A stretch of 64,000 nt of DNA from Siphlonurus alternatus (taxonomy: Eukaryota; Arthropoda; Insecta; Ephemeroptera; Siphlonuridae): assembly GCA_949825025.1 (NCBI GenBank), contig OX463784.1, positions 22,627,868 through 22,691,867 on the forward strand, given 5' to 3'. Of the stretch, positions 1 through 53,600 are shown piece after piece. How positions within the stretch are numbered: the first letter of the stretch is position 1; every line of letters starts with the position of its first letter. The notes beneath the pieces are model-generated. The model had not been told where the DNA came from and ran no database searches. It saw only the letters and a list, made by a program, of their open reading frames with translations. The position numbers and the translations under genes were made by a program.

Positions 1-1839
1 ACGTTCATGTTTATAAATTTTGATATACCATAGTCTCTAATTTTAATGAAAAAGGTACAATATTTATAAATAATAAAAATATATTGTAAATTCTATCAAA
101 TTCTTTGAAAGTTATGATAAACTTAAAAAAAAAAATGTTATGTACTTCCTTATAATCATTGAAGCATGTAAGAAAGTTTTTATATTATTTATTTTATTTT
201 TTTTTTTTGCAAAGTAGGTCAAGGATACCTTGTGAAAGGGGGAAGTCCGTTAAGTGAAAAGTTGGAGAGAAAATAATGTTATTTCATAGCAACCAATTGA
301 AGTTACTGTGCTTTATGTTATTATGGCCATATGGCTTGAAGGCACTGAACTTAACTGTAAATTTTTATAAACATATGGGAAAGAAGCTTTAGAAGTTTAT
401 CTTATGTGACAACTCAATAATTATTGTGTTATTTCTTATTATCTTTAAGATAAAAGTGATTCTTTAAGAAAAGATAAGTGACCTTCTGTTAAATTAAGTG
501 ATATTTTTTTAAAGTGGTGATATATAATTAGTTTGACCTAGCATAATAAATCAATTTATAACATAGTATTATTACATCAGCTATTTTATAATACAGTTTG
601 TGGTTTAACTGAACTTTATTAGTTAAAAATTAATTTTACTTTTGGTAAGTATGTACTGTAAATTTACAGTTAATAGTTTTAATTACTGTACCATATATGA
701 ATCTACCAGTATAATGTGTTTATAATAATGTATTGTATGAAAAATGATAACATTTCTAGCTTGTTGTATCATAGCAACCTTTTATGCTGTATGTAATTAT
801 TACATAATATTACCTGTTGAACATCATACACAGTACATGTACTGTAATTAAAATTTTACAGTTTTCATTAAATATTTTGTTTGCTATTTCATAAAAAAAA
901 AAAACACAGCTTGTATGGACCAATATTTTATAGGTTGCCCCCAAAATAAGAAGCATAATTTTTTTTTTTCTGTAATTAAAACAAATTTCTGACACGAAAA
1001 TCTTGGAATTACAAAAGGTCTTGTTAGGGGGAGGGGGAGGAAGGGTATACAGTACCCTTTAAAAAAAAATACATACCAGTACAGCACAGTAACTACTACA
1101 GTACATAGTATTATTGTATCTTCATTACATTAAAAAAAAAATTATTTCAATTTAAAAAGGATACTGTAACAATTTTATTTAAATTAATTTAAGGATGAAT
1201 TTCAGTAGGTTGATATCTCGCAATCGAACCGCCTGAATGCAACAAGACTTGCAGGGGACTTAGAACTCCCTATCAATAGGTGGCATACAAATTTTGAAGC
1301 GAATCTGTCTTATCAGTTTTGTGAAAACTGAGCTAGAAGTTTAACATTGGCCTTATGGACAGAAACCGGAAATGGAGCTGTTGTAAGAAAACTGCAAGAC
1401 TGAATTTGCTCAAACCATAAGCGAATAAGTTTTAGAACATTCTCGATTTTTTAAAATTTATTTCATTCGATTCGTTTGCAGGAAAATATTCTTTGATTCC
1501 GAAGTAACTGACAATTGTGAGATTAATCGTTAATACTTTATTTAATTTGATTTTCTCTATTGTTTTTATTTTCTTGTCTTGCATTCCAGCAAGCTTTGTT
1601 TTTATACATCGGTGAAAGTTAGTAGCATGTTATTTACAGTAGGAAGTAAAACAATTGCTGGATGCAGCACATACAAATTACTATCAGTGCTCTCTTTATT
1701 TGAGATAATTTGATGAAAGTTCGCATTACAAGCCTGTCAGTAGACAATTTAATTATACCGTAGCACAAGAGATTTCAGCTGTACAGTATTTGTAAAGGAA
1801 AAGTAAGGTTTTTATTAGTACCTCTATGTAAAATTGAAT
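1..1839 (+). other. Upstream IFRD intron sequence, no gene seen
   Basis: AT-rich with no convincing exon. It should be part of the intron between the missing first IFRD exon and 2572. A less AT-rich patch at 1230-1400 may be an old repeat that I cannot classify. Confidence 0.5.
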
Positions 1840-1928
1840 CTTGTGAAATGATGATTAACTTATATTTCAGAGCATTGGGTTATGAATCTAATGATTTATC
1901 TGGGTGTTTCCCATTTTCTGATCACAAG
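1840..1928 (+). ncRNA. Intronic C/D-box snoRNA, copy 1 (subfamily A)
   Basis: An 89-nt unit closed by a perfect 7-bp stem (CTTGTGA / TCACAAG). C box ATGATGA is at 1848-1854 and D box CTGA at 1918-1921, each next to the stem as in canonical C/D snoRNAs. Internally TTCAGAGCATTGGG (1866-1879) is followed by a degenerate D' (ATGA, 1882-1885) and a C'-like TAATGATT. The core is complementary, with one G-U pair, to the 28S rRNA segment I recall as CCCAGTGCTCTGAA, so the likely role is guiding 2'-O-methylation there. With the N+5 rule from the proposed D', the target would be the C just before AGUGCUCUG; human SNORD88 guides a nearby C from memory. Lies in the intron upstream of the first visible IFRD exon, on the host strand. 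Confidence 0.85.
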
Positions 1929-2033
1929 TATTTTATTCAAAAATTAATATCTTTGTAATATTATGTCCAATTAAATCTCAAATTAACTTTATTTCTTTTT
2001 GACTTGTCTTCAACACTTGTAAAAAATCAACAA

Positions 2034-2147
2034 TCACTACTTTTACATGACGGTGTTTAATACGTATCCGTTGACGACGCCTCATAAGAATAACATTATC
2101 CGTCGTCAACGAATACGCATTAAACACCGTCATGTAAATGTAGTGAT
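2034..2147. repeat. Short foldback element in IFRD intron
   Basis: Arms of about 45 bp (2034-2078 and 2098-2147) are inverted copies, e.g. ACGGTGTTTAATACGTATCC against its near-complement, separated by about 20 bp. Confidence 0.75.
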
Positions 2148-2571
2148 AATGAAGCATACAGTAGCTCATACGTTTAGAAGTGGAGTGAAATCCTTGCAAC
2201 CCATTGCATGATTTTTATGTTTTCATGTTTTGTTAGGTATTTTTTTTTTAATTAAAAAATAAGGAAATAGGAAGAAGTTTTACAAATTATACAGACCAAC
2301 TCTGAATTAAATGTCAATTTATTTTTGCAAAATGCTTGATGTGCAGATTCCTATTTCATTTCTTCTCCGAGTGCCATAATATGCCGTTATTTAATAGTTG
2401 GACACATGTAGGGAACAAAATATTACGTTTTTAGACACAACCAAATTTTTTCAACCATTTTATAGGAAACAAAGGGAGGTTAGGTCACATAGGAGACAAA
2501 ATATTGTGTATTAGGACACAACTTACATATCATGGCAATGTGTTGAACAGCTGTTTTTTTTTTGTTTCCAG

Positions 2572-2679
2572 GTGCCCCCAAGGGCCGTCTCGACAACCTC
2601 ACCTCCGATGAGGACTCTATGAACGATAATGCGAGCATCATCAGCATCGCCTCTGAGTCACGCAGCATCATGGAAGAAG
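2572..2679 (+). CDS. IFRD1: IFRD exon (first in window)
   Basis: Acceptor tttccag precedes 2572 and donor GTGAGA follows 2679. The first two bases finish a codon begun in the missing upstream exon. Encodes the low-complexity Ser/Asp-rich N-terminal region (APKGRLDNLTSDEDS and on) ending MEEG. Confidence 0.85.
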
Positions 2680-5600
2680 GTGAGATGACCTACATGGAGC
2701 TCTGTGTTCGGGGACAGTTTACTGGGAGGATAGATTGAATTGAGAAACTTTGATATTCAATAATTTTAGTGCGTTGGAGTGGTCTGTTTGGGGATGCCAA
2801 AGATTGACAGCGTAGCTCTGACACTTAATCGTCACCTTTGATGTACTTTAGTTAGGCTAGCCAATCAAATGCACTGTAAAAGTCAGCGTCGTGACGTACC
2901 AGGGATTTGACATGGCGTCACTTTAGCGGCAAGAGAGGACAGTTTGAAAGTTAGATCATCCTCCAGGAGACAATCATTGATTACCCTGGGTTAGCCCGTG
3001 TGTAGTGTGAACGGGCTCCGGGATAAAAAAAAAATAAAAAAAAGGTGGGAGAATGCACTTTTGCCATGTTGCTTACCGTGTGATACCAACTACATTGATA
3101 ATTTCAAAGATTTAACTGAAATTTTGATTTTTTTTTTTTTTTTTTAATAGTGAAAATACACTAAATACAAATGGACAATCTGCATGATTTTTTTTATTGC
3201 ATATTCAAATATAGGACCTTGACTTATTTGTTGTCATTTGCGAGCGTAGAGAAAGATGTTACATGACTATGACATCACAGTACTTTTTCCCTCAAATTAA
3301 AGAGTGTTATAACGAGCAAAAAAAAAAAATACCCAAGGTCCTCTATCCAAGTACAGAATAAAAATAAAAAAAAAAACTTTCATTTGTCCAGCATCAGCAA
3401 GCAGAACTTAAAACCTCTAGAAAAATGTAAAAAAGTGTGAACATTAGACCTGCAAAAAATGACATTTGAGTGACATTGAATTTAATCTCAGTCTGCAAAA
3501 AATATTGTCCTAATTTATGAATCATGAGGTTGGTAGCAAGTAAAAAATATGAAACTGGGCATTTTGTTTTTTGCTTTTATCTTAAAAAAACGGATTTAGT
3601 CAGCCAATAAGGTTCTAAAGGTTTTTACACTTTTTACAGATTAAAATGAAAGAAGTAGGAGGTCATTGTTTACTGTATTTTAGCTGATTTTTTTACTAAA
3701 CTAATTCATGTAGGTAATTCATGTTAGTGCAGTTGTGATATGATGAGACTAATTATTCAGAGCATTGGGTTATGATTGTAATGATTACACCTATTTTAAA
3801 TTTACTGATCACAATCATGTACTAACAAACTCTTTATAAAAGGTATTTACTGTAAAAAATTGGTGAAGGGGACTACAAAACATTTTTTTTTTCCCCTGAT
3901 GCATTCTTTTGCTCAGAGGGTAATTTTAAATTCTCTAATTTGCATCCCATTCGCCACTCCAAATCCTCTCGTATTTGTACATTTTCACATTTGTCTACAT
4001 GGTAATTAATGCAGAAAAGGAGGGTGATATATAGAAGATGATAAAAACAGTTAATATTGTTTGTAAAACCTTTGATATACAGTAAACATTTGTTATTACG
4101 TAACGTCAAGGAAACCTTATATAGAGTATTAACTTGCTGTAAGTTGAGTTTTTCCTATCCACGCAGTGCTAATTATTTTTTACGGGACCGTGATCTCCTT
4201 TACTCAAAATAGAGTTTTACCTAACAACAAGTTGCGTAGATTTTACAGTGTGTGGTATAAAATGGTGTTGAGGCATTATTGAGGCTTCATTGTTGGACTA
4301 CTTCCGTAGTCCTATTACCCCTGTAACACTTGTCAGTTTGGACGTCACTGACGTACTGTTCCATTTTGTCAGGGGGAGAGGAGGTTGACGAGCAGACCCA
4401 AGAGGACTTGTTCGAGGAGAAGTTGATGGAGGCGATAGACGGTATCATGCAGAAGTCTGCGCCGGCTCGCACCACAGCCTTGGAGGGAGTTGGCAAGGCT
4501 TTCGTCAAGAAGTACCTGCCAGACTTCACTGCAGAGAGGTGAGAACTGTTATTAGCAAAATTTCAATATGTAGGCCCCGTCTATACTGTGAGATGGTCAT
4601 CTAGATATTTAAGTATAAACTTAAGTGACATCTATATTTGAGAATTAAATACTACATACTTGTAATAACATAAATTAACTTTATTTAATCTCAAATCCAG
4701 AATAATGAGCTACCTTCTAAACCTCATTTCGTTGCTTGAGCTATCTGCTATTTCAGGTGCTTATTTTAATAGAGTATTGACCTCAATTTTTTTTATTGCA
4801 GAAATGAATAGAGGGTGCAAAGTTATGCTACCCTGATTTTTTTTCAGATTTTTTAGAGCCCGGGAAGTATTTTTAAAAAATTAATGAAAGTCCTTTTTGT
4901 GACGTCATGCGGCGGCAAGTCCTATTTTTTTTGTGACGTCACAAAAAGAACATTCAATAATTTTTTAAAAATACTTCCCGGGCTTTAAAAATCTGAAAAA
5001 AATCAGGGTAGCATAACTTTGCACCCTCTATCCATTTCTGCAATAAAAAAATTGAGGTCGATACTCCATTATGAGCTTTAAATTGGTATAAAGTAAAGCT
5101 TATTGTTGTGCTCATCCAAAATAGCAGATAGCTCATTATTGCAACGAGATTATGATAGACACATAGCTCAGTATTGTGGCAAGGGACAATTTAGTCTTTC
5201 AAGGCTAAGGTTACATCTGAGAAATTGCAAGAAATTACTTAATTTCCGCTTCCAGTTGCTATAGTATAGCTTGTAACGGGAGGGGAAATTGTGTAGTTAT
5301 TTCCAGAAATTTCCAGATGTACAGTAATGTAAAGCTTGTTTAAATTTCCTAATTATGTTTGTATATAAACATAAAATGATGTACATAATAATTTTAAGGG
5401 TAAGGTAACGCCACCAATGTTAAAAAAAATCCCTCACACAAAAATTCTGTAAAAAATTTAAAATGTTCTCCTCTACACCCCCAATCAGTAGCTAAAATAT
5501 CAGGTATACAAATTCGATCTAGTTTTTGAGTTATGAATTTTTAAAGTTGACTAATTTGACATGGGAGTTTCATTTCTCCATGTTAAAGTAGTCAACTTTA

Positions 5601-8600
5601 AAAATTTATAACTCAAAAACTAGATCGTATTTGTATACCTGATATTTTAGCTACTGATAGGGGGTGTAGAGGAGAACATTTTAAATTTTTTTCAGAATTT
5701 TTGTGTGAGGGATTTTTTTTAACATTGGTGGCATTACCTTACCCTTAAGTTAGCGTCTTGACATCATAGCATGTAGCTATCTAGCTATAAAGTAAAAGTA
5801 CTTAGGACAAGTTTATACTTGGGTCTATGAACTTAAGAAAGTGCAGACAGGACATTGACTCCATACTAAATTGTAATAGATAACCATTCATTTGCCCGGA
5901 AGTATTCTAAACGTCCTGCTACCTTCAATGTGTTTTTAAAAGAAACCGATAAGGTTCCTCTTATCTCACCACTTCCTTTGTCTAATTGGTGTTGTCTGAC
6001 CTTAACTGTAAAATATTATAGCCACAATTTTGTTTGTCAAATGTTTGTAAAAAAAATATGTATCTTGTGAAATGATGATTAACTTATATTTCAGAGCATT
6101 GGGTTATGAATCTAATGATTTATTCGGGTGTTTCCCATTTTCTGATCACAAGCCTTGAAAAAAAAAATTTTGCTAATTTTTTGCTCGTATAAAAGAAAAG
6201 ACACTATCTAAAATCATTAAAATGTTCATCAAAATGAAATGTGACTCCATTTTATTTTAATAGAATTGGGCTGGAAAAATACATAAAAAAAAATAGCATA
6301 CTATAATATAAATTATTTACAAAAATTGCATTAAAAACAAAATGTATTCTTATTATTTTTCATGCCCATGTCTGTAAGTCACAGCCACTTGTACACTAGG
6401 AACCAAGCTAAAGGCCACATCTAGGGGATGCCACGAGCCAAAGAAATAGGTGCAACATTGCCATTTCGGTGGCACGGGCATAGCTGGAGCTGAATAATAG
6501 CTGCACTATTTGACAATGTTGCTTGTATTTAAGCTATTTCATTAACTGACGGCACTCATGTTTAATGGTACATTTAGCTTTGCTTCTAATCTGCAGGGAC
6601 AATATTGAGATTCACCAATGATCATTTCAACTTACGACAACAGAACTCCATTGTTGACCTTCCTTGCCATGTCCGCAGGCACTGTACCATCACCGAGGGC
6701 ATCAAGGGCAGTCTGCGGAAGGGCCGAGGTGCCGAGCAGGGAGCTGCCGCTCAGTTGGCGCCCCTGCTGTGCGTGCAGCTGGGAGCCGGAAGTCTGAGCG
6801 AGGAGGTGTGTGCGGTGCTGGGGCCAGTCCTGCTGCAGGTGGCCACCGACAAGTCCTGTGCTCCCACCGCCCGCGCAAAGGTGAGCCACTTTATTGTTGA
6901 AGAGGAAAAAGTCTTGTTAGTTTTGAAACTATTTGTCATGTGAAAAAAATAGAAATTGTTCTGGGTCTTTGTCTTTTAAAAGGAGCACATAGAATTCAGT
7001 GGTCTCAAATTCGAAGTTTGTAAGTCGTCGCCTCAAAGCCAAATTTTGTACTTCTTTCAAAATATCTTGTTTAATGAATAGATGCTTGATAGATATTTAA
7101 ATACAGTAATAAATATTTTACTCCACTCTTCTACTTATGTATCTTGTGAAATGATGATTAACTTATATTTCAGAGCATTGGGTTATGAATCTAATGATTT
7201 ATCTGGGTGTTTCCCATTTTCTGATCACAAGTTGTTAAAAACTTAAGTCAATAGTTTATAATTACAGTATAGAACTAAAAATCACTGAATTGAAGAAAGA
7301 TGAATTGCTTCTCTAATTTCTGAAAAATTATTTCAGATAACACACTAGCCATTATTTCCTGAAGACTACACAGTATCCCCACTGATGGTCCCTGTACACC
7401 ACATGATCTCACTCTGTCCCCCCTGTGTCCACAGTGCTGCTGGTCACTGTCGCTGCTGCAGTTCCTGAGTGGCGGAGAGCTGACGGAGGTGACAGACACC
7501 ATGCAGGTGCTTGAGGAGATCTACTCGGGCTCGTACCTCAAAGGTAACGGCACCATCCCGGCCGTGCCAGCTGAGGAGGCCCAGCTTCACGCCGCGGCCC
7601 TCTCGAGCTGGTCCCTGCTGCTCACACTGCTAGCACCGTCTGACGTCTACTCACACATCTACACAGAGAGGTGAGTCACTGATTGAAACGAAGGTGTGGC
7701 TTTACGAGAGGCTTGTATAAATATACAGCCTGCTTGTATGGGTGCAAACGGGTAGCCATAAACCATTGTCAATGAACTGAACTAATTTTTATTTTCTAAA
7801 AAAAATATTCACTTTAGAATTTGAATTTTTTCTTTAAATACTGTATTTAAAATATTTAAGCAAGTGCTGTATGTTATTTTAAAATGTTATGAAACGAATA
7901 TTGTATTCCACTAGCATAGCAGCTGACATGACAATGTTGAAGACTGCTGAACTCTATGTACTGTAATAAAATTTCCATGCTGTACCGGTAACAAAGAATC
8001 ATTTTTTTTTTTAAGTACAGTAGATTAACTTTTTGTTTTATTTTCAAAAATCTTCATGCAATAATTGCATTTAATTGGTAATTAAAAGAAGGCATCCGAT
8101 TCACAAACACAATTATTATTGAGGAGGGATAAGAATTAAAAGATTAGACATGCAAGGTGATTGAGATAAGATGAACTTTACTTTTTGTTGCTATGTGACA
8201 ATTTTAAATCCACCAAACATAAGATTAAAAAAAAGAGTAGATCAAAGTTCAAGGTTATGTTCTTTGTTATTGAAGGTCAATCAGGGCAGTATAAAAAGAA
8301 AGGTCGGGTCAATTAAAAACATTTTCAGTATCACATGATCAAATAAAGTGAATTAAGTGTATTAAAGGAAATAATTTGGCTTGTCTTCTCCAAAATTTGT
8401 TTCCTAGCATTGTTTTGAAAATCCTGCACTAAAAAATATGTGCTTGTAAAGTATCATTGAATATAATTTAGATAAATTGGTACATTTCTAGCAGTACCGG
8501 TAAGATATGTATCATGTGTAATCTATGTACATACTGTATCTTGTGAAATGATGATTAACTTATATTTCAGAGCATTGGGTTATGAATCTAATGATTTATC

Positions 8601-9298
8601 TGGGTGTTTCCCATTTTCTGATCACAAGAAGTTTTAAAAGGAAAAAAAAAAAAAAAAAACCACACTCTGTTGCTTGACTTTGGTGATCTGACAAGACCTG
8701 GTCAAGCGCACTGCGACACCTTTCCACCTTCCCCCCCCCCCCCCCCCCTACTGTTGTTGATATTTGTCTCCACCATGCAGGGATATTGACCGTGCTCTGG
8801 AATGTTACAGCCAGCTGGAGCGACTGCTGGAACTGCTGGAGTCATCGAGCCTGGAGGTTCGTATCGCTGCCGGGGAGTGCATCGCGGTGCTGTTCGAGCT
8901 GGGTCGCTCCCACCACGACGACTTTGAGGAGGGACAGGTGGAACAGCTGTGCGAGATCCTCAGACAGCTGGCGACCGACTCTCACAAGTACCGAGCAAAG
9001 AAGGACCGCAAGACTCAGAGGTCGAGCTTCAGAGACATCCTGCATTTTGTGGAGGTGAGGATAAGACAGTCATCCTGGATATTGTAAAAATTGAGAAGTC
9101 GATGTTAGTATATTTTTTAATACCATATTTTTGTTGCTCAATGTTTTAAATTTCTAGGATTAAGTTATGCTACTGTCCTTTTTAAAATCTTAAAATATGT
9201 ATTATGTACTTTCACTACTTATCATAGCTTGAATAAATTAAATATTCTTACAATGTAGATATAATATTTTAAGGTTATGGTGAATTTTGTCCTCTTGT

Positions 9299-9330
<32 letters not shown>

Positions 9331-11839
9331 TATATTTTTTTTTTATTAAGCACCTGCAACTAATATAATTTGATTTAACTTATTTTGTAGCTCGAATGTT
9401 GGTACTACCGGTATTGCTGTGATATGATGAAACTGTAATATTCAGAGCATTGGGTTATGAAACCTATGATTACAATTAAATTTACTATTCTGATCACTTT
9501 TACATACAATAAAAAAGATAAAATATTTCTTTGCTACATTACTTAAAATCCTGAAGATATTCCTATGGAACTAAATTATGTGTTGGTTTCAGGACGCCAA
9601 GGCCCTAGACATCCAGGTGCGGTTTGGCAAGGAGATCCTGATGGTGGACTCTTGGTGCAAGAAGAAGCACTACGACGCCTTCTGCCAGGTCAATATTGTC
9701 TGCAAACACAGCCTCTAGACTAGGTCCAAGTGGTGTAAATTGGATTTAAAACTCATGCACTACATGAATAAGTAATACAGAATAGAAAATTGTCCTTTTT
9801 TAAACTCGTTCGATTCTTCTAACTTGCTTGCAAATTTCTATTTGTTACGCCTCAGTGCAGCTAAAAGTTACTTTTAAGAGTATGTGTGCTTTCTATTTAA
9901 AAATATTAACAATTTATGACGGTCATTGTTTATATTTTTTATAGTTCTTTGTGATATGATGAAACTGTAATATTCAGAGCATTGGGTTATGAAACCTATG
10001 ATTACAATTAAATTTACTATTCTGATCACATCAACAAACTTTAATTATCATCCCGCATCTGTAATACTGAGCTATGTACATCATGATTGTATGTAGCATT
10101 GAGTTATCTGCTGTATTAGGTGAGATTTAAATCAGAAAGCTTATTATTGCAATCATCTGATATTATAGCACACAGTTCATTGTTGCTCATCATTATTACA
10201 GACGAGGAACATAAAATATGGCACATAATAAAATTTGAACTCCTCTTTCTTCTTCTTTTCTTATGCCCATGTATTGGTTATTAAACCTTTTTATCATTTA
10301 CTTAAAGGCCTTATGAACCTTTGCACAATATTAAGTACACGGTTAGCTTTGCTTTAGTATGATTCGTCTGCATAATTTTTTTTGTTTCAGCAGCACAAAT
10401 ATCAGAGATAATAGCCGATGAAAAGGAACCTGTGACGTCACTCACGCTCATTCAGCGGCGACAATATAGGGAAATCCCTGCAAAAGATAGGTTCACTCCC
10501 GCTGCAACCACGGCCACAATTTTACTTCTGGAATTTTGAAACTTTACCAGGGCAGTCTTAATAGTATTTGTCAAATAGCCTGAAAGATTTTTTTTGATGA
10601 CATTCATACAAACCGAGTTATTGCGGTAGAAAGAGGAGCAAAAATGTTGTATAGGAAAACAATGTTAAATTTTTAGCTTATCTTGCAAGCACAATAACTC
10701 AATCGGTACACACGCCACCAAAAAAATTCTTTCAGTCCATTTGACAAATACTATCAAGACTGTCCTGGTAAAGTTTCAAAATTCCAGAAGTCAAATTGTG
10801 GCCATGGTTGCAGCGGGAGTGAACCTATCTTTTGCAGGGATTTCCCTATATTGTCGCCGCTGAATGAGCGTGAGTGACGTCACAGGTGCTTCTTCATCGG
10901 CTATTATCTCTGATATTTGTGCTACTGAAACAAAAAAATTAGGCAGCCGAATCACCCTGAAGCAAAGCTAACCGTGTACTTAATACTGTGAAAAGGTTCA
11001 GAAGGCCTTTAAGCTAATGCCTCTGACTTGTTATTTCTGTACTCATGAGGAAAATAAAATAGAGAAAGGATTCCTTCTCTTCCCTCTTCATGTTACCAGG
11101 CAACGAGTCAAGTTCTGTAGTTAATGCAGAGCATCTAAATAGATAACGATTTTCCCTGACGTTGTGACATGTTGTGACAGGTCCTTGGTCCTGGGCTGAA
11201 CCTTCACCTTGCCGAGAACGACCTCTTGAGAGACGTGTTTGAACTTGGAGAGAGACCTACCCTCCTCAACGGAGCCACACAAAAGACCACCAAGCTTGAG
11301 AGAGTGAGTTCCCTCAGTCACATTAGGATAATTGTGTCTTGATTTGTGAGATGATGAAACTTTATATTCAGAGCATTGGGTTATGATACCTATGATTACA
11401 ATTAATTATTTATTTCTGATCACAATTAAATTAAAATGTTAAAATTACCACTTGAATAGATTATATCAAATATGCAGACAACTGTTAAGTAGCAAAGCTC
11501 TGACATTTTGTGAATCGGGTGACTTGCCACAAAAAATAGGATAGCCTATAATGGCAGCTGGTTGATATCTAATACATTATTTACCATACTTTTGGTTGTG
11601 AGAACCTAAACCTCTTGACCTCTCATAACGAAGCGTAAGAGCTGGTCTGTCTCTCACAACCATTACAGCTAGTTACGAACCGCAGCCTAATTTACATACC
11701 TGTTTGAATGTATTGATGTAACGAGACTAACTTTGTTGTCTTCTGTCCGCAGCACTTGATGAACGCAGCTGCCTTTAAGGCAAGGACCATCTCTCGAAGC
11801 AAAAACCGTGACAAACGCTCGGCAGTCATAGCATGTTGA
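2572..11839 (+). CDS. IFRD1: IFRD1/IFRD2 homologue (interferon-related developmental regulator), 3' eight exons
   Basis: Spliced coding exons read at 2572-2679, 4373-4538, 6679-6880, 7435-7670, 8781-9054, 9593-9688, 11181-11303 and 11753-11839. All have AG/GT borders and compatible phases, giving 429 residues to the TGA. The protein begins with a Ser/Asp-rich segment (NLTSDEDSMNDNAS), has an acidic EEVDEQTQEDLFEEKL stretch, a helical-repeat IFRD domain (through RIAAGECIAVLFELGR and HKYRAKKDRKTQRSSFRD) and the C-terminal IFRD_C region ending near HLMNAAAFKARTISRSKNRDKR, as in vertebrate Tis7/PC4 and SKMc15. Family members act as transcriptional co-regulators and IFRD2 as a ribosome-binding translational inactivator; which role applies here is not shown. 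The first exon (about 30 residues with the start) lies upstream of the window. Exons are GC-rich against AT-rich introns. Each visible intron carries a snoRNA-like element. The 1/2 paralogue choice is not resolved. Confidence 0.93.
3733..3814 (+). ncRNA. Intronic C/D-box snoRNA, copy 2 (subfamily B)
   Basis: Stem TTGTGA / TCACAA, C box ATGATGA at 3740-3746, D box CTGA at 3805-3808. Contains the ATTCAGAGCATTGGG core; the preceding A extends the 28S complementarity by one pair. This is the most diverged B copy. In the 2680-4372 intron. Confidence 0.82.
4373..4538 (+). CDS. IFRD1: IFRD exon, acidic region and start of helical repeats
   Basis: Acceptor tttgtcag, donor GTGAGA. Encodes EEVDEQTQEDLFEEKLMEAI followed by a segment aligning with the human 'KSAKTRQAALEG' type helix (KSAPARTTALEGVGKAF). 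Phase fits both neighbours. Confidence 0.93.
4695..5180. repeat. Outer foldback (GAGCTATCTGCTATTT family) containing a nested foldback
   Basis: The outer ends (AATAATGAGCTAC..., AGCTATCTGCTATTTCAGGTG on the left; AAATAGCAGATAGCTCATTATTGC on the right) are inverted. Related copies are at 10056-10205 and 15770-15962. The middle is occupied by the 4771-5070 foldback. Confidence 0.7.
4771..5070. repeat. Foldback MITE, GGGTGCAAAG family
   Basis: Ends GAGTATTGACCTCAATTTT / TTGAGGTCGATACTCC; the inverted arms include GAGGGTGCAAAGTTATGCTA, CAGATTTTTTAGAGCCCGGG and AAAAATTATTGAAAGT-like runs. The centre carries TGACGTCA-type palindromes. Confidence 0.8.
5398..5744. repeat. TTAA-flanked foldback MITE, GGGTAAGGTAACGCC family
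   Basis: 347 bp, nearly perfect hairpin, starts GGGTAAGGTAACGCC and ends GGCATTACCTTACCC, with TTAA on both sides (5394-5397 and 5745-5748). TTAA duplication is the piggyBac hallmark; no transposase is present. The copy at 16886-17232 has the same length. Confidence 0.82.
6064..6152 (+). ncRNA. Intronic C/D-box snoRNA, copy 3 (subfamily A)
   Basis: Stem CTTGTGA / TCACAAG, C box ATGATGA, D box CTGA at 6142-6145. Differs from copy 1 only at the CT/TC pair before GGGTGTTTCCC. Sits in the 4539-6678 intron, which also contains two foldback elements. Confidence 0.85.
6455..6585. repeat. Dispersed repeat, second copy at 20292-20415
   Basis: Shares GCCATTT..GGTGGCAC, AGCTGGAGCTGAA, TATTTCATTA and CATTTAGCTT with 20292-20415 in the same order and orientation. 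Class unknown. Confidence 0.6.
6679..6880 (+). CDS. IFRD1: IFRD exon, helical repeats
   Basis: Acceptor gtccgcag, donor GTGAGC. Encodes CTITEGIKGSLRKGRGAEQG then AAAQLAPLLCVQLGAG, the conserved 'ERCLKKGK..EQ.AAA.LA..LCIQLG' part of the family. Ends in phase 0. Confidence 0.95.
7143..7231 (+). ncRNA. Intronic C/D-box snoRNA, copy 4 (subfamily A)
   Basis: By eye identical over 89 nt to copy 1, while the flanks differ apart from a short TGTAT also seen before copies 3 and 5. In the short 6881-7434 intron, about 200 nt from the acceptor. Confidence 0.85.
7435..7670 (+). CDS. IFRD1: IFRD exon, helical repeats
   Basis: Acceptor gtccacag, donor GTGAGT. Encodes CCWSLSLLQFLSGGELTEV through LSSWSLLLTLLAPSDVY; matches the human region containing SSLLAWTLLLT. 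A family-typical insert (SYLKGNGTIPAVPAEEAQ) lies between helices. Confidence 0.95.
8540..8628 (+). ncRNA. Intronic C/D-box snoRNA, copy 5 (subfamily A)
   Basis: By eye identical to copies 1 and 4: stem, C box ATGATGA, core TTCAGAGCATTGGG, D box CTGA. In the 7671-8780 intron, about 150 nt upstream of the next exon. Confidence 0.85.
8668..8735 (-). repeat. 5S rRNA-like SINE head fragment
   Basis: Read on the minus strand it gives CAGTGCGCTTGACCAGGTCT then CAGATCACCAAAGTCAAGCA, the 5S-like segment with a box A-type motif. The body is missing; a C-run lies at its 5' side and an A-run (T-run on the minus strand) at its 3' side. In the IFRD intron before exon 8781. Confidence 0.65.
8781..9054 (+). 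CDS. IFRD1: IFRD exon, most conserved core
   Basis: Acceptor caccatgcag, donor GTGAGG. Encodes the strongest family signature: LEVRIAAGECIAVLFELGR, then LRQLATDSHKYRAKKDRKTQ and RSSFRDILHFVE. Starts 1 base into a codon, ends in phase 0. Confidence 0.96.
9419..9497 (+). ncRNA. Intronic C/D-box snoRNA, copy 6 (subfamily B)
   Basis: Stem GTGA / TCAC, C box ATGATGA 9424-9430, D box CTGA 9490-9493, core ATTCAGAGCATTGGG. The 79-nt unit has a different 3' half from subfamily A. About 95 nt from the acceptor, near the 70-80 nt spacing known to favour vertebrate intronic snoRNAs. Confidence 0.85.
9593..9688 (+). CDS. IFRD1: IFRD exon, start of C-terminal domain
   Basis: Acceptor ggtttcag, donor GTCAAT (weaker than the others). 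Encodes 32 residues including IQVRFGKEILMVDSWCKKKH, matching human 'IKFGPERMYIDCWVKKHTYD'. Confidence 0.93.
9950..10030 (+). ncRNA. Intronic C/D-box snoRNA, copy 7 (subfamily B)
   Basis: Stem TGTGA / TCACA, C box 9956-9962, D box 10022-10025. By eye identical to copy 6 between the stems, although it lies in a separate intron (9689-11180) with unrelated flanks. Confidence 0.85.
10240..11160 (+). repeat. Dispersed repeat interrupted by a foldback; other copy at 15985-16135
   Basis: 10240-10301 plus 11013-11160 together match the reverse complement of 15985-16135 (CTTCTTTTCTTATGCCCA, GGCAACGAGTCAAGTTC, GCATCTAAATAGAT). The 10302-11012 foldback was inserted into this copy. Confidence 0.65.
10302..11012. 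repeat. 711-bp foldback element in IFRD intron
   Basis: Long hairpin: CTTAAAGGCCTT at the left end pairs with AAGGCCTTTAAG at the right. Arms contain CACGGTTAGCTTTGCTT, ATCAGAGATAATAGCC, CACTCCCGCTGCAACC and their complements. No coding capacity. Confidence 0.85.
11181..11303 (+). CDS. IFRD1: IFRD exon, C-terminal domain
   Basis: Acceptor ttgtgacag, donor GTGAGT. Encodes 41 residues, VLGPGLNLHLAENDLLRDVF through TKLER, matching 'EVLGSGMQYHLQSNEFLRNVFELG'. A dispersed repeat ends roughly 25 bases upstream of this exon. Confidence 0.95.
11344..11425 (+). ncRNA. Intronic C/D-box snoRNA, copy 8 (subfamily B)
   Basis: Stem TTGTGA / TCACAA, C box ATGATGA 11351-11357, D box CTGA 11416-11419, core ATTCAGAGCATTGGG. 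In the last intron (11304-11752), only about 40 nt after the donor. Confidence 0.84.
11753..11839 (+). CDS. IFRD1: IFRD terminal coding exon
   Basis: Acceptor gtccgcag. Encodes HLMNAAAFKARTISRSKNRD then KRSAVIAC and stop TGA at 11837-11839. Matches the human C-terminus (FERHLYNSAAFKARTKARSKCRDKR). Confidence 0.95.
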   Translation, partial: HLMNAAAFKARTISRSKNRDKRSAVIAC

Positions 11840-15962: not shown

Positions 15963-16885
15963 AGAACCTCAAGACAGAGGGCATCTATTTAGATGCTCAG
16001 CATTAACTGCGGAACTTGACTCGTTGCCTGGCAACATGAAGAAAGAAGAGAAGGAAGCCCTTCTCTATTGGCTTACTAGAAGTAAAATGGCTTAAACGCC
16101 AATGCGTGGGCATAAGAAAAGAAGAAGAAGAGGATATTAATAGTACACAAAAATTGCTATTAAATATATAAGAGTGCATATAACATTTGTTGAAGATAAA
16201 AATAAGAGAGCACCTACAATTTGGTAAATTAATTACATTTTTAAATTTAAAAGTTAACTTCTAAATTTCTGAAAATATTTTTTTTTAATTGAGACAGATT
16301 TTATCTTCAATTTATGAGATAGCCATTATAGTTTCAATGTATTTTTCAACAAACACATCAACACTACAACAGCTTTTTTTTTTTTTTAAGCAGGATATAT
16401 AATAATATTATGCTTAAATTGGAACTTAAATTGAACAATATGCTTTATATATTTTATTATTAACCAAAAACTAAAAATGCTCAGAGAGGAAAAATAAAAT
16501 CTAAAAGTTAGTATGATGGGTTTAAACAGTGGTGGTTATAGAATGGTTTAATGGCACACACCTAGCTCTTTTACTACAATTTTTATAGAAGGAGACCAAT
16601 CTTTATAGCAAATTCAGTAGCCAATTCAATATAATAAGTTCCTGATGACAAGTTGATTCTATTGAACTGGTTGCTCAGAAAATTCTACAATGACTCCTTC
16701 AATAATTATGGATAACAAAAAAAAAGAGTCAATATTAGAAGGTTAAGTTGTCAGTTTAATAGACTCCTGATGACGAGCTGGTTTCATGAGACTGTCTACT
16801 GAACCTTCTATTTCAATTTCTTCTATGGAAATATTAGGGTGAATGACCTTAAAATATTATACCCACCAAAACTGGTTGTATTTAA

Positions 16886-17232
16886 GGGTAAGGTAACGCC
16901 ACCAATGTTAAAAAAAATCCCTCACACAAAAATTCTGAAAAAAATTTAAAATGTTCTCCTCTATACCCCCTATCAGTAGCTAAAATATCAGGTATACAAA
17001 TTCGATCTAGTTTTTGAGTTATGAATTTTTAAAGTTGACTACTTTAACATGGAGAAATGGAAATCCCATGTTAAATTAGTCAACTTTAAAAATTCATAAC
17101 TCAAAAACTAGATCGAATTTGTATACCTGATATTTTAGCTACTGATAGGAGGTGTAGAGGAGAACATTTTAATTTTTTTTCATAATTTTTGTGTGAGGGA
17201 TTTTTTTTAACATTGTTGGCGTTACCTTACCC
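16886..17232. repeat. TTAA-flanked foldback MITE with 37-bp flanking duplication
   Basis: 347-bp hairpin, GGGTAAGGTAACGCC to GGCGTTACCTTACCC. Immediately outside, 16849-16885 and 17233-17269 are identical 37-bp direct repeats that each begin and end with TTAA. Confidence 0.85.
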
Positions 17233-17269
17233 TTAAAATATTATACCCACCAAAACTGGTTGTATTTAA

Positions 17270-28400: not shown

Positions 28401-31400
28401 TTCAAAAATGAATGGAGTATCGACATCAAAATTTTTCATTGCAGATATGGAGGACGTAAAGTTATGCTATATACTGTGATTTTTTTCCAGATTTTTTGAA
28501 GTCCAGGAACTATTTTTAAAAAAGTTATTAAGAGTAATTATTAATTAATAATTAACAATTATTAATAAAAAAAGATAAGAGCGTTGGTTCAAACCCAACC
28601 TTGGCAAAACTTTTTAGCAAAACTTCCTAAAAAATCAGAAAAAAAAAAATCAGAGACTTTGCACCCTGTACTCATTTTTGCAATAAAAAAAAAATTGAGG
28701 TTGATACTCCATTACAGAGTAGTCAAAACATTATTACTTCCGGCCACTTCCGGAAGGAATATAAATTTAATTTGACTGTAGCCACGAGTGGGTTGGTTTG
28801 AAGTAGTTGATAAGGAATAGGAAAATGAGGCTACATCAATTTACATCACTATACTAGCTGAAATATTATATCATTTTTTGGGAGTATATTTATATTTTTA
28901 ATTATTATTTATACTATATAGTATATAAGATAAGGAAATTGGAGCTTTATAGATACAAGCCATTCTTGATTAAATGAATTAGTATAGAACTCTAGTATAT
29001 TTTTGAAGTCATCTTGAATAATAGAAATAAAACTAATCAATGGAAAAATCCGAAAAATACTGATGTACAAAAAGTAAAAATTAGAGCTTTTGATATTAAA
29101 TTTATATACAGTATAATACTATTGACAAACAATTATATTTCTATTAAATAATATTTATGGAGTTTTCTAATACAGCACAGTACAGTACAGTAAATAATAT
29201 ACTGTACGTATATTATATAAACTAAGCTAAAGTAAATAAAAAAATTAATAAGTAGGTATAGTGTATATTATATATATATTATATATAATATATATTATGA
29301 TATACATAATACAATGTCATTATCATGCAAAAGTTAAAGATTTATTTCGTTCCAATTTTTTTAAGACGGAAACTTTCTAATGCCAAGACTGGCCAGTAAA
29401 ATAACCTGAAAACTATGGTATTCTAAAATTTATATTTAATTAACATTATGATCTGCATAGCTGCATCCACCGATTTGATGACGTGTATGACAGTCATATT
29501 ACACATTTAAAGAAAATTGAGCTATCAATCTGCGAGCTATTTATTATTGCTAAAAAATAAACAATAAAAAATTGCATGCTGGGGGAATTTTCTAACAAAG
29601 TTCAAATATTACATATGGACACATGGACTGGTCATTTAACAGTTATTTTATTGTCTAACATGACAATAACATAACATGACTTTTATTTTCATTAAAAGTT
29701 ATTTAATAGAACAAGATAAATTATAAAAGAATATTATTAACATCGATAATATGCAATAAACACAATGAATATGAAACATGCATGCAAGAAAAACATGAAA
29801 TAAATTTAATAAAGTCACGCTGCGTTTTATTATAAGGAAGTTATAACTATCGCAAAGATAATTTGTCATCAATATTAACACAAATCATTTCCTATAGTTT
29901 GTCACAGCGTCATGAGTCACAGTTATCAGTCTTTCCGCTCTAGAACACATGCACTTGAGAGCAAAGATTCCAGTACTAGCTCGTACAGGAATCTTGCTTG
30001 AGAGTATAATTTTATTATATACAGTAACACGACTTGATCAAAGCTCCAATTTCGTGTCACCTACTATATAGCCCATCTTGTAACGAGAGTTACTTGATGT
30101 ACTGTATGTAATGTACCAACAATTAAAGAGACATGACATGAGCTAGACCGTGACCTCTGTATGATTTACGCTCCGACAATGCCGTAAGTTCGTAATAGTA
30201 CAGTACGTATAGCAAACTACATAACATTTATGTATGTTGTTTTACACGTACGACATGCATTATATGAAAATTGAGGAGTGTTCTCCCAGCGAAAAAATTT
30301 TATCCATAATTTAATTAATTAGTGAAAAATGTGTCAATATTAAATTTGCAAACCTTATCTACCCCCCTTCCCTCAATATTTAAGGCTATTTTCACTTTGG
30401 TCCATTGATTTAAGAGGTGTCTATCCTAACCGAGGTTTTCCACGGTTCCCTCAGTCTCACTTCGGCGAATGCTGGGACGCGTAACAGGTCATCTTTACTC
30501 TCCCTTATTCCTACTCATTACCCCGCTTTGAGCTCATACGGTTGTTTCCGTTTAATCAACTTAAAATTAGTGATCCTGACCTTTTATACCCATTGCAATT
30601 TATATGAATCTACTCAAAGCGAGAAAAAAACACACAATAGGAACCTCCATAGTTAATTTAATATTCATTCCCAAAATATATCGATAATACATTCGACACA
30701 CGCAATGTAAAACCAATGATATATTAAATTCATTAGCAAAAGTGTGTCAACTTGTATACTATTTCTCGAAATCAATACAGATAGCTCGGCCAACGTTTTT
30801 ATCTCTCTAGACTTCGCTCTCTGAGTTGATAACGATGTGTTTATCTCAAAGAGTCGAGGTTACTAGTACCATATAATATATAACTAGTACCTTTGTCTAA
30901 GGAGCAATTGTACCAACGTTACAGGACCTTTGCACTGCAAGAATAATAAAAATAGCTCAATGATTTCATTATGTAAATGAACATGTTATTGAATAAAACT
31001 ACATTAAAAAAAATATGTAACCTCAGGATAGCACGAACTGCCTCACTTGCTATTATAGAGCTGCAGCTTCAATAGAGAGATACAGATTTACGATCTTAGG
31101 TGATGTAAGAAGAGCACCCTGTCTACCAATATCAAAAAAAGTTTTAGCTCACCAAGTGTCTATAGACTGCGTGGTAACGCTAGATGCCTACATGAAACAA
31201 AGAGTTAAAGTTCCTGGTGTCCAGAGGTGTACGGCTTTGTATGGACACCATGAACTTTACCACGCAGTCTATGGGAGGCGTAATGAACCAAAACTCTTTT
31301 TTGATATTGATAGACTGATGCTTACTCACCCTCTAGCAAGTGAGGCAGGAGTTAAGTTTTTATTGTACCTCATAGGTGTACAGCCCCAGACAAATCTTTC

Positions 31401-34400
31401 GTTACCCGTACGATTTCTGGACGATATCGAACTCATTGTTACGAATTTTAATTCTTCGGTAAAGAATGTATTATTATAGTAATCGCTTCTCTCATTTCCA
31501 CCGAAATATAGACAATAATGGTTGCATTTTTTTATTTCATAATTAGAAAATTTACATTAAATTAAGCTTTTCTGAATTTTTTCAGATTTTTTGGAGTGCG
31601 GGAACTAATTTTAAAAAAATATTTAAAATGTCTGAATTTGGGTGGTACACCTGATGGGACAACCGTGACGTCATCGACAGCCAATCACAGCAGCCGTGAC
31701 ATCATCAACAGCCAATCACAGCACGACAAATGACGTCACGGTTGTCCCATCAGGTGTACCACCCAAATTCAGGTATTTTAAATATTTTTTTAAAATTAGT
31801 TCCCGCACTCCAAAAAATCCGAAAAAATTCAGAAAAGCATAATTTTAGGTATATTTTCTAATTATGAATTAAAAAAATGCAACCATTATTGTCTATTTCA
31901 AATCATTAACTCCTATCATACTGCAGGATTTATACAACATCATAAATCAGTCCGGGGTAAAGAGGGCTTTGTCTTCAGATATATATATAATATGTATATA
32001 ATTATATGAACGGACTCAAGAGCAAAGTAATTAAATATTACTGTAATTTTAGATAAAAATCATAAAGATGGGTCAATAATATCATTGATATAAGTCTTAT
32101 TATGTACTCTGTAAATAGGACTATGGTGTAATGTGTAATTAATTTCAACAGCTGCAGGGGCAAAGTGCAACAAGCTTGCATACAGCTGCACAATATTGGT
32201 GTCACATTTATATAAATACTTGGTTTTCTTGTTATAACTTTACGTCATCTATATAAAAATATTATAATTTCAGACTAATTAAATTTACTTATATTACAAA
32301 ACAATGTACAGTACATAATATAATATATAGTCTCAGTCCAAATAGTGTAGCTCTGTCGCATTCTTTATGGCTATTATTTAATATACAAAATTGTATAAAA
32401 TTATAATTATATTCCTTAGGAATTAAGTTATCTGGATGGGAAGACTATAACATATTTGGCTAAATACCTATTAATAATGTCATAATGCAGAGTAAAGATT
32501 TTTAGTACTTAGAAATTATTATACTATTGTTTCTAGCTTGCAAATTTGCAAATATTTTCTCCCGTAAACGGAAGCGGAAATAATTGAAATTACAAGATTT
32601 CCGGCAGTAAACGAAGGCTTGAAACACTATATGTAAATGTAGCTGTATAATTAGCATGTAGTGTACATGACATGTGTATTGTTTATTTATTTTACGTGAG
32701 TCAAAAAGCCAGATTTACAGTATATTATAAAATATAATAATTATAATGCTGCAATGCAAGACGACTGCAATATACTGTGAATTTAAATAATGATTAAAGT
32801 AAAGTGCGCGCTAGAAAAAAAAGTTGAGTTAGTATTTTCTAACAATAGTTCAAGTAGTCCTCCATATCAAACCAAAATTAAAAAAATTCTATCTCAAATA
32901 GGTTTGCCAGAAAAAAATTCCAAAGTCAGAGTGAACGCGTCGCTTAACATGGGGCCTTACCTGACAAAAACCCTCGAATATCTCGAAAAAATACACCGTT
33001 AGGTGGTATGAAAAAAATATAGTGATGTTCTATGACCCAAGCTTTAACCAAAAACCGATTAAAAAAAATTCGCTCGAATCCATTTTTCCGTAAAAAAATA
33101 ATAAAAAATCTTATGGGAATTAACATGGTAGATTTTCTTGATTTTTTTACGGAAAAATGGATTCGAGAGATTTTTTTTTAATCGGTTTTTGGTTAAAACT
33201 TGGGTCATAGAACATCACTATATTTTTTTCATACCACCTAACGGTGTATTTTTTCGAGATATTCGAGGGTTTTTGTCAGGTAAGGCCCCATGTTAAGCGA
33301 CGCGTTCACTCCGACTTTGGAATTTTTTTCTGGCAAACCTATTTGAGATAGAATTTTTTTAATTTTGGTTTGATATGGAGGACGACTTGAACTATTTTTA
33401 GAAAATACTAACTCAACTTTTTTTCTAGCGCGCACTTTACTTTAGAGTATTTTATATTTATCTATTTTATTAGCACGTTTGTGCATTACTTTTACTATGG
33501 ATAATAAAAATGTCATTTTTATTAAATAATGGACAACATACATGAAAAAATTTTATTGCAGAAATGAATAGAGGGTACCAAATTATGCTACTCTGAATTT
33601 TTTCAGATTTTTTTGAAACCCAGAACCGTTTTTAAATAATTATTGAAAGTGCGGCCACGCCCTCTGGAGGCGTCAATAGGCGTTCAGTCTCTATCCTTTT
33701 TATTAAGAATTCAGGGGTGCCAACTTAAATCACAGAACTTTCAATAATTATTTAAAAATAGTTCCGGGTCTCAAAAAAATCTAAAAAAATTCAGAGTAGC
33801 ATAATTTGGTACCCTCTATTCATTTCTGCAATAAAAATTTGTCATATGTATGTTGTTCATTGACAATATTCACATATAATATACGATTCTTGCCAACATG
33901 TTTATTTTTCTTAAATTATGTCATTTTAAAATTATACATATTATATTTTAAATTTGTAGATAAATGTGTGCGACTATTTTTTTACTCTTTATTGCAAATA
34001 AAACTTTTAATTGTTTGCTAGCGTCATTCTCTGAAATATTTGTTAAATGACGAAGCAGTTGAGACAGATTGTGATTTTGCGACTTTTAACCCCGGATTTG
34101 CTGAGATAATGAAGATACGTAGCGGTCGGTGACAAAGTCTGCTATATTGTCACCTCTGTTTTAACGTTGCTTCATCCGTGACCCATTGGACGGTAGTGAC
34201 ACAAACTGTCGTTGACGTGAAGTTGACTTTAAGAGGTTTCGTTGACCTTAGGATATTTCAAGTAGTGGTACCAACATACAGGAAATTATACTATGATGAC
34301 GATATTTTAGGAATTAATGGGACATTGTCCACAAAACTGAAAAATAAAATATTTAAGCTTGTGATACTATTTTTACATTTCAAAATTTAGAATGGAATAT

Positions 34401-39099: not shown

Positions 39100-39515
39100 T
39101 CTGGGAGGTGTGGCGCAGTGCGCTTGACGGGGTCTCGTCAGATCACCGAAGTCAAGCAACGCCGCGCGTGGTTAGTAGATGGATGGGTGACCATTTTCAA
39201 CAAAAACCACGTTTCCCACCCAGGGGTAAAACGTTGCGCTTTTCCACTATGTGGTTCCCCTGGCTTTGGACCATTGCACTTCCGGTTCATTGACAAAAGC
39301 TGTAGCGTCCATCCTAGCTGAGGTTTCCACGTTTCCCTCAGCCGCAGGCAAATGCCGGGATGGATTTGCAAGGCCGTGGCCGCCCCCGTTCCAGAAGAGC
39401 CCGCGAAACGCTCAAGTTATGGTTTCGGAAGATCGGGCCGGGTTTCAAAGTAGTATGTATATAATTAGTAAATAATAGAAGTACCCAATAGCTAGGGTTT
39501 GATTAAAAAAAAAAA
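39100..39515 (+). repeat. 5S rRNA-derived SINE, family A, full-length copy
   Basis: The head at 39117-39192 carries CGGGGTCTCGTCAGATCACC, GAAGTCAAGCAACGCCGCGC, GGTTAGTAGATGGATGGGTGA: the 5S box A, intermediate element and box C in order, so an internal pol III promoter is expected. The body (CTTCCGGTTCATTGACAAAAG, GCAAATGCCGGGATGGATTT) ends in an A-rich tail. Inverted second copy at 53195-53600. Confidence 0.85.
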
Positions 39516-53194: not shown

Positions 53195-53600
53195 TTATTT
53201 TTTTTAGTTTTTAATCAAACCCTATTGGGTACTTCTATTTACTAATTACATACTACTTTGAAACCCCGAACCTTCCGAAACCCTAACTTGAGCGTTTCGC
53301 GGGCTCTTCTGGAACGAGGGCGGCCACGGCCTTGCAAATCCATCCCGGCATTTGCCTGCGACTGAGGGAAACGTGGAAACCTCAGCCAGGATGGACGCTA
53401 CAGCTTTTGTCAATGAACCGGAAGTGCAATGGTCCAAAGCCAGGGGAACCACATAGTGGAAAAGCGCAACGTTTTACCCCTGGGTGGGAAACGTGGTTTT
53501 TATTGAAAATGGTCACCCATCCAACTACTAACCACGCGCGGCGTTGCTTGACTTCGGTGATCTGACGAGACCCGGTCAAGCGCACTGCGCCACACACGTT
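53195..53600 (-). repeat. 5S rRNA-derived SINE, family A, second full copy
   Basis: Minus-strand reading gives the same head (GGGTCTCGTCAGATCACCGA, AAGTCAAGCAACGCCGCGCG) and body as 39100-39515, ending in an A-rich tail at about 53195-53215. Confidence 0.85.

Follow-up and report, generated by a model that had tools for sequence, protein, structure and literature searches.

In the SNORD115 and SNORD116 arrays, one guide is present in many copies, each in its own intron of a single transcript. The human SNORD88A/B/C snoRNAs share the host gene C19orf48, and fly guides with multiple isoforms are known. Families of box C/D snoRNAs mostly reside in one host, for which cis recombination was proposed as the cause (in parts of PMC8178906 and PMC2653536), and intronic snoRNAs follow the rule of one snoRNA per intron (in part of PMC11028025). 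The nucleotide targeted by SNORD88A/B/C in human is C3680 of the large-subunit rRNA (in part of PMC10911272). Here, we describe an IFRD gene from the mayfly Siphlonurus alternatus, in which each intron of the coding region carries one copy of the same predicted box C/D guide. The window analysed comprised 64,000 nucleotides (64 kb) of contig OX463784.1 (positions 22,627,868 to 22,691,867), and all coordinates refer to it unless stated otherwise.

The host gene lies on the + strand. Its coding exons 2 to 8 are located at 2572..2679, 4373..4538, 6679..6880, 7435..7670, 8781..9054, 9593..9688 and 11181..11303, followed by exon 9 with the stop codon at 11753..11839. When joined, these eight exons encode 429 residues up to the stop codon, and the resulting protein contains the domains PF05004 (E 1.3e-92) and PF04836. 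It shares 84% identity (369/439) with B566_EDAN009870 of Ephemera danica; among the best 120 of 380 matches, the next ones reach 65-66%, with the named ones coming from insects (Timema, Zootermopsis), and the match from Neocloeon triangulifer, the one other mayfly recognised among them by name, shows only 53% identity. The start of the E. danica protein, MPKGKKKYNKGSGG, is encoded on the + strand about 720 bases upstream of the window (L007:9281), followed by GTAAGT, and the reading frame of this first coding exon joins that of exon 2 as judged by eye. Since the start codon lies in this exon, the coding region consists of nine exons and eight introns. A PDB sequence search with the IFRD protein also matched chain LP04564p of entry 6xu6, which we take to be fly IFRD on its ribosome. 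The host protein is a member of a family described as ribosome-binding (in part of PMC6226290). The introns additionally contain long inverted repeats (2033-2147, 4807-5032, 5487-5655 and 10524-10791), which by eye extend further and resemble MITEs, and a stretch similar to 5400-5750 recurs by eye near 16880-17235. Matches of the introns to Rfam microRNA families fell on long inverted repeats, with scores far under the cut-offs of the families, and were rejected.

Exactly one unit of 84-89 nt, oriented like the host gene (+ strand), was found in each of the eight introns. The units fall into two subfamilies. Subfamily A comprises those in intron 1 (1840..1928; C box 1848, guide 1866-1879, D' 1882, C' 1891, D box 1918), intron 3 (6064..6152; C box 6072, guide 6090-6103, D box 6142), intron 4 (7143..7231; C box 7151, guide 7169-7182, D box 7221) and intron 5 (8540..8628; C box 8548, guide 8566-8579, D box 8618). 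Subfamily B comprises those in intron 2 (3732..3815; C box 3740, guide 3756-3769, D box 3805), the most divergent B copy, intron 6 (9416..9500; C box 9424, guide 9441-9454, D box 9490), intron 7 (9948..10032; C box 9956, guide 9973-9986, D box 10022) and intron 8 (11343..11426; C box 11351, guide 11367-11380, D box 11416), the latter with the strongest predicted 28S duplex. The distance from the D box to the 3' splice site is scattered between 99 and 1155 nt. Under random placement proportional to intron length, with intron 1 entered at about full length, exactly one unit per intron is expected with P = 4.2e-4, so that an origin of this pattern through chance is unlikely.

All units share the same order of elements. 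A terminal stem encloses the C box ATGATGA, the 14-nt guide core TTCAGAGCATTGGG, TT, the D' box ATGA, a 5-nt spacer, the C' box ATGATT(T/A) and the D box CTGA. C box, guide, D' and D box do not vary across the eight units, and the 5-nt spacing between D' and C' is kept in all of them; the only difference in C' is its last base, T or A. The D' box, read in RNA as AUGA instead of CUGA, is a variant of the latter, and the 20 nt formed by guide and D' are common to 8/8 units. An ACT is kept shortly 3' of the C box in every unit, and no second common guide was found upstream of the D box, where the sequence differs between the subfamilies. The terminal stem measures 5-8 bp in seven units when small offsets are allowed, and 4 bp by eye in the unit of intron 6. 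Between C' and D, the A units carry GGGTGTTTCCC (1902-1912 in the copy of intron 1), which may form a small hairpin and is absent from subfamily B.

The core occurs eight times without mismatch in the window, always on the + strand. At up to 3 mismatches, ten matches were obtained, the additional two with 3 mismatches each; shuffled sequences gave a mean of 4.15, and 0/100 reached ten. Scanning the 64 kb on both strands with a plain C/D pattern, RTGATGA...CTGA closed by a stem of at least 5 bp, returned seven matches, whereas 20 Markov-shuffled sequences averaged 0.2. Every match was a unit, the one missed being that at 9416. A covariance model (R1) gave the eight units 93.7-98.9 bits (98.5 bits for the copy of intron 1), scores that are high by construction since the model was built from these units, and the runner-up in 84 kb (the window plus 20 kb upstream) obtained 22.3 bits. 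The 20 kb preceding the window contained no further copy of the core. The first-pass annotation had reported eight + strand units of 79-89 nt with ATGATGA and CTGA boxes, one per intron and none elsewhere in the 64 kb. Number, strand, boxes and placement agree with the present results, as does the absence of further units from the plain scan; the size range needs to be narrowed to 84-89 nt and one of the stems is weak.

The guide pairs with 28S rRNA over 14 nt, a length within the 10-21 nt expected of a C/D guide, including one G-U pair, and the duplex ends two bases before D'. Its predicted target in 28S rRNA is CCCAGUGCUCUGAA. The segment reads UGCCCAGUGCUCUGAA in the Rfam consensus of the eukaryotic large subunit, where it is printed in capitals, and TGCCCAGTGCTCTGAA in a 28S fragment of the same assembly. 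The previous claim that the guide is antisense to a conserved part of 28S was thus borne out over 14 nt against both sequences. The predicted free energy of the duplex is -28.6 kcal/mol for subfamily A and -30.2, -32.6 and -34.3 kcal/mol for the B forms, and 500 shuffles of the subfamily A guide yielded a mean of -10.4 and a best value of -22.4 kcal/mol. In the predicted duplexes, the ACT following the C box may pair further along 28S. This extension is tentative, because the rRNA letters are those of an unrelated contig and the fragment of the assembly itself differs there. In the duplex, the third C of CCC is paired with a G, the fifth base upstream of D'. By the D'+5 rule, the predicted methylation site is therefore the third C of UGCCCAGUGC, which is equivalent to C3680 of the human large subunit. 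The SNORD88A/B/C antisense oligonucleotide, when reversed, reads UGAUGUCCAGCACUGGGCUC and pairs with the identical 28S segment (sequence from part of PMC10911272). The guide derived from it and that of the units would be in the same register, provided that the D' box of SNORD88 is a CUGA begun by the last base of the segment. Judged by boxes, guide and target, the units are very probably box C/D snoRNAs aimed at the equivalent of C3680.

The 28S query detected a single fragment in the assembly (G000:C9:2750816; L021, about 1485-1575), whose sequence just beyond the guide site differs from the consensus, and no full rDNA unit was found with this query. Because 28S is seen only as a fragment, rDNA is evidently poorly assembled here, and other sequence may be missing from the assembly as well. 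The fragment breaks off after TAACTATGACTCTC, an end that we take to be the insertion point of R2 retrotransposons, and the break is possibly an R2-type junction. A second, inverted match to the large-subunit rRNA lies at the same locus. Separately, an IMG/VR contig (L001, 8-174) was seen to start with a eukaryotic 28S fragment and is possibly non-viral or chimeric.

Copies outside the gene were sought in the whole assembly (455.7 Mb, 102 contigs). Common words were skipped in these searches, and the counts are lower bounds. DNA queries with subtype A and subtype B returned five and four matches, respectively, all of them units of the IFRD gene. The 20-mer of guide and D' had eight exact matches, all within this gene, none at one mismatch, one at two and 16 at three. 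The reversed-pattern control gave 11 matches at up to 3 mismatches, and the 17 looser matches were rejected as snoRNA copies since they scored at most 19.4 bits with R1, compared to 93.7-98.9 for the units. A 14-mer allowing C or T matched ten sites (control: 2), one in each of the eight units, one in the 28S fragment and one at a site that is neither rRNA nor C/D, which was not accepted as a unit. The shorter pattern AGAGCAYTGGGNNHTGA matched the eight units and one further site (control: 0); by eye, the latter is part of a tRNA-like repeat. ATGATGA is absent from the surrounding 220 bases, and this site was likewise discarded. A comparator search for SNORD18 in the same genome yielded 0 matches, with 60 of 65008 candidates scored and the control ringing in 0/14 genomes.

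None of the Rfam families reached its gathering score for the units. The best match, snoZ122, obtained 34.2 bits at a threshold of 38 bits and was rejected as an identification, as it fell below threshold and left the guide unaligned. In a sub-threshold cmscan of 1500-11800, the families placed over the eight units were all C/D snoRNAs; a laxer scan of one unit gave 15 weak matches, including a scaRNA and a lncRNA family. Elsewhere in the window, no Pfam match (E <=0.01) was obtained for 8 of the 28 listed open reading frames, all located outside IFRD. Two near-identical open frames of 92 residues without Pfam match lie in opposite orientation at 39138-39416 (-) and 53287-53565 (+) and probably represent a repeat. 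A frame of 152 residues with complex composition, also without Pfam match, is located at 31021-31479 and is possibly an exon of an unrecognised gene.

Within subfamily A, the copies of introns 1, 4 and 5 are identical across 89 nt, and that of intron 3 differs from them at 2 nt. Within subfamily B, the spacers of the copies in introns 6 and 7 are identical. Between A and B, only 3-6 of 46 box, guide and stem columns differ, compared with 20-25 of 43-44 spacer columns. Past the ends of the units, identity within a subfamily continues for 0-7 contiguous bases, and the flanks (40 bases on either side, ungapped) match at just 8-20 of 40 positions. Duplication of intron blocks would have brought the flanks along and fits worse as a source of the copies. 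The alignments suggest instead that the copies moved by unit-sized copying or by gene conversion bounded by the units. The two subfamilies also provide a record of snoRNA movement among introns.

Based on these features, we propose that the IFRD pre-mRNA is spliced and that each excised intron would be debranched and trimmed to one C/D snoRNP. Besides one mRNA, a full transcript could thereby yield as many as eight copies of one guide, whose D'-adjacent sequence would pair with 28S and direct 2'-O-methylation at the equivalent of C3680. The sequence shows the anatomy of the units, their host, strand and intron placement, their exclusivity in the assembly, the conservation of the guide and its complementarity to 28S; production of RNA, methylation and selection for dose are inferences. 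The array would have arisen by copying inside the IFRD gene, with the subfamilies homogenised via unit-sized copying or gene conversion and the placement of the units shaped by the one-per-intron rule of processing. We lean towards selection of the eight copies for guide dose, because the guide is intact in each copy and decayed ones were not found. Recent homogenisation weakens this argument within the subfamilies, not between them.

The main competitor of dose selection is a neutral array, in which the copies would be harmless products of duplication in cis, one unit per intron would merely reflect that only such copies can be processed, and no particular dose would be needed, although the guides would still work. 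Almost all chicken paralogs are ascribed to intragenic duplication (in part of PMC2653536), and recent homogenisation could equally produce identical guides within a subfamily. However, boxes and guide are identical in 8/8 units even though roughly half of the spacer columns differ between the subfamilies, so that every copy looks constrained, and neither the gene, nor the 20 kb preceding the window, nor the looser matches in the assembly yielded a decayed copy. We consider a neutral origin possible but unlikely. Alternatively, the units could belong to a dispersed element, such as a snoRNA-derived SINE or a retroposed snoRNA family, that sits in IFRD by happenstance. Near-identical copies with dissimilar flanks, whose identity stops at the edges of the units, would be left by retroposition, and A-rich stretches are found downstream of some units, in sequence that is itself AT-rich. 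This explanation is scarcely credible in view of the whole-assembly searches, which revealed no copy outside IFRD, and of the uniform orientation of the units, one per intron; the abundance throughout the genome in random orientation that the first-pass annotation had named as evidence against its proposal was not observed, with only eight copies found in one gene and one orientation.

Action of the units in cis on IFRD splicing, instead of on rRNA, is highly unlikely. The guide core has no minus-strand match in the gene at up to 3 mismatches (with G-U scored as a mismatch) and matches a conserved 28S segment, and the distances between units and acceptors vary more than tenfold. A further extension of dose selection would treat IFRD in this mayfly lineage as a combined ribosome-state gene, whose array ties how much C3680 is methylated to how much of a ribosome-dormancy factor is made. 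It draws on the family member IFRD2, which holds 80S ribosomes inactive and contacts helix 69, and the C3680 mark presumably sits in the 28S domain just ahead of this helix. We regard this coupling as speculation and as rather improbable. That the host comes from a ribosome-binding family makes a coupling of host protein and guide worth testing. With one host, one site and eight nearly interchangeable copies, snoRNA dose is also open to experiment at this locus.

In the open-access literature, no relevant title was found on IFRD as a snoRNA host, no paper on a snoRNA in the fly IFRD gene (presumably CG31694), none by title on mayfly snoRNAs among those listed, and none treating snR76 together with SNORD88. 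The first-pass annotation had called IFRD a dedicated multi-copy snoRNA host; the gene is a multi-copy host, whereas "dedicated" is too strong a term, because it still encodes the IFRD protein with an open frame. Compared with human SNORD88A/B/C (HBII-180), the units are equally of the box C/D type and are predicted, from sequence, to address the same 28S nucleotide, C3680, in the same register, with a U in their guide that results in one G-U pair. The likeness lies in target and register, as SNORD88 gave no row in cmscan at gathering or among the 49 matches at E <=10, in a library that presumably includes this family. The guide of the units adds a new example to a function already known. Three isoforms of SNORD88 are described in human, where C3680 methylation differs between growth states of fibroblasts and knockdown of the SNORD88A/B/C guides slows their proliferation (in part of PMC10911272), as against eight copies in IFRD. 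The amplification of a C3680 guide in a distant animal thus bears on whether the number of guides sets the level of methylation.

As in IFRD, paralogous guides share one protein-coding host in the case of SNORD58A-C in RPL17, and the examples of single-host C/D families given in the same source comprise two or three expressed members (in part of PMC8178906), in contrast to eight coding-region introns with one guide. Intronic snoRNA clusters are described for another insect, Drosophila (in part of PMC5932544). JOSD3 and its chicken counterpart hold eight snoRNAs in different introns of a protein-coding gene (in part of PMC2653536), so that high occupancy of such a gene is not new by itself; these eight snoRNAs are different, whereas IFRD repeats one guide. 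The SNORD115 and SNORD116 arrays have a non-coding host made of repeated exon-intron units. Assignment of the present array to this type was rejected, since the IFRD exons are unique, encode successive parts of one conserved protein and are accompanied by units with dissimilar flanks. Hosts with several C/D copies are known from these systems, and what is unusual in IFRD is the occurrence of one guide in every coding-region intron of a protein gene, which takes the familiar arrangement to an extreme.
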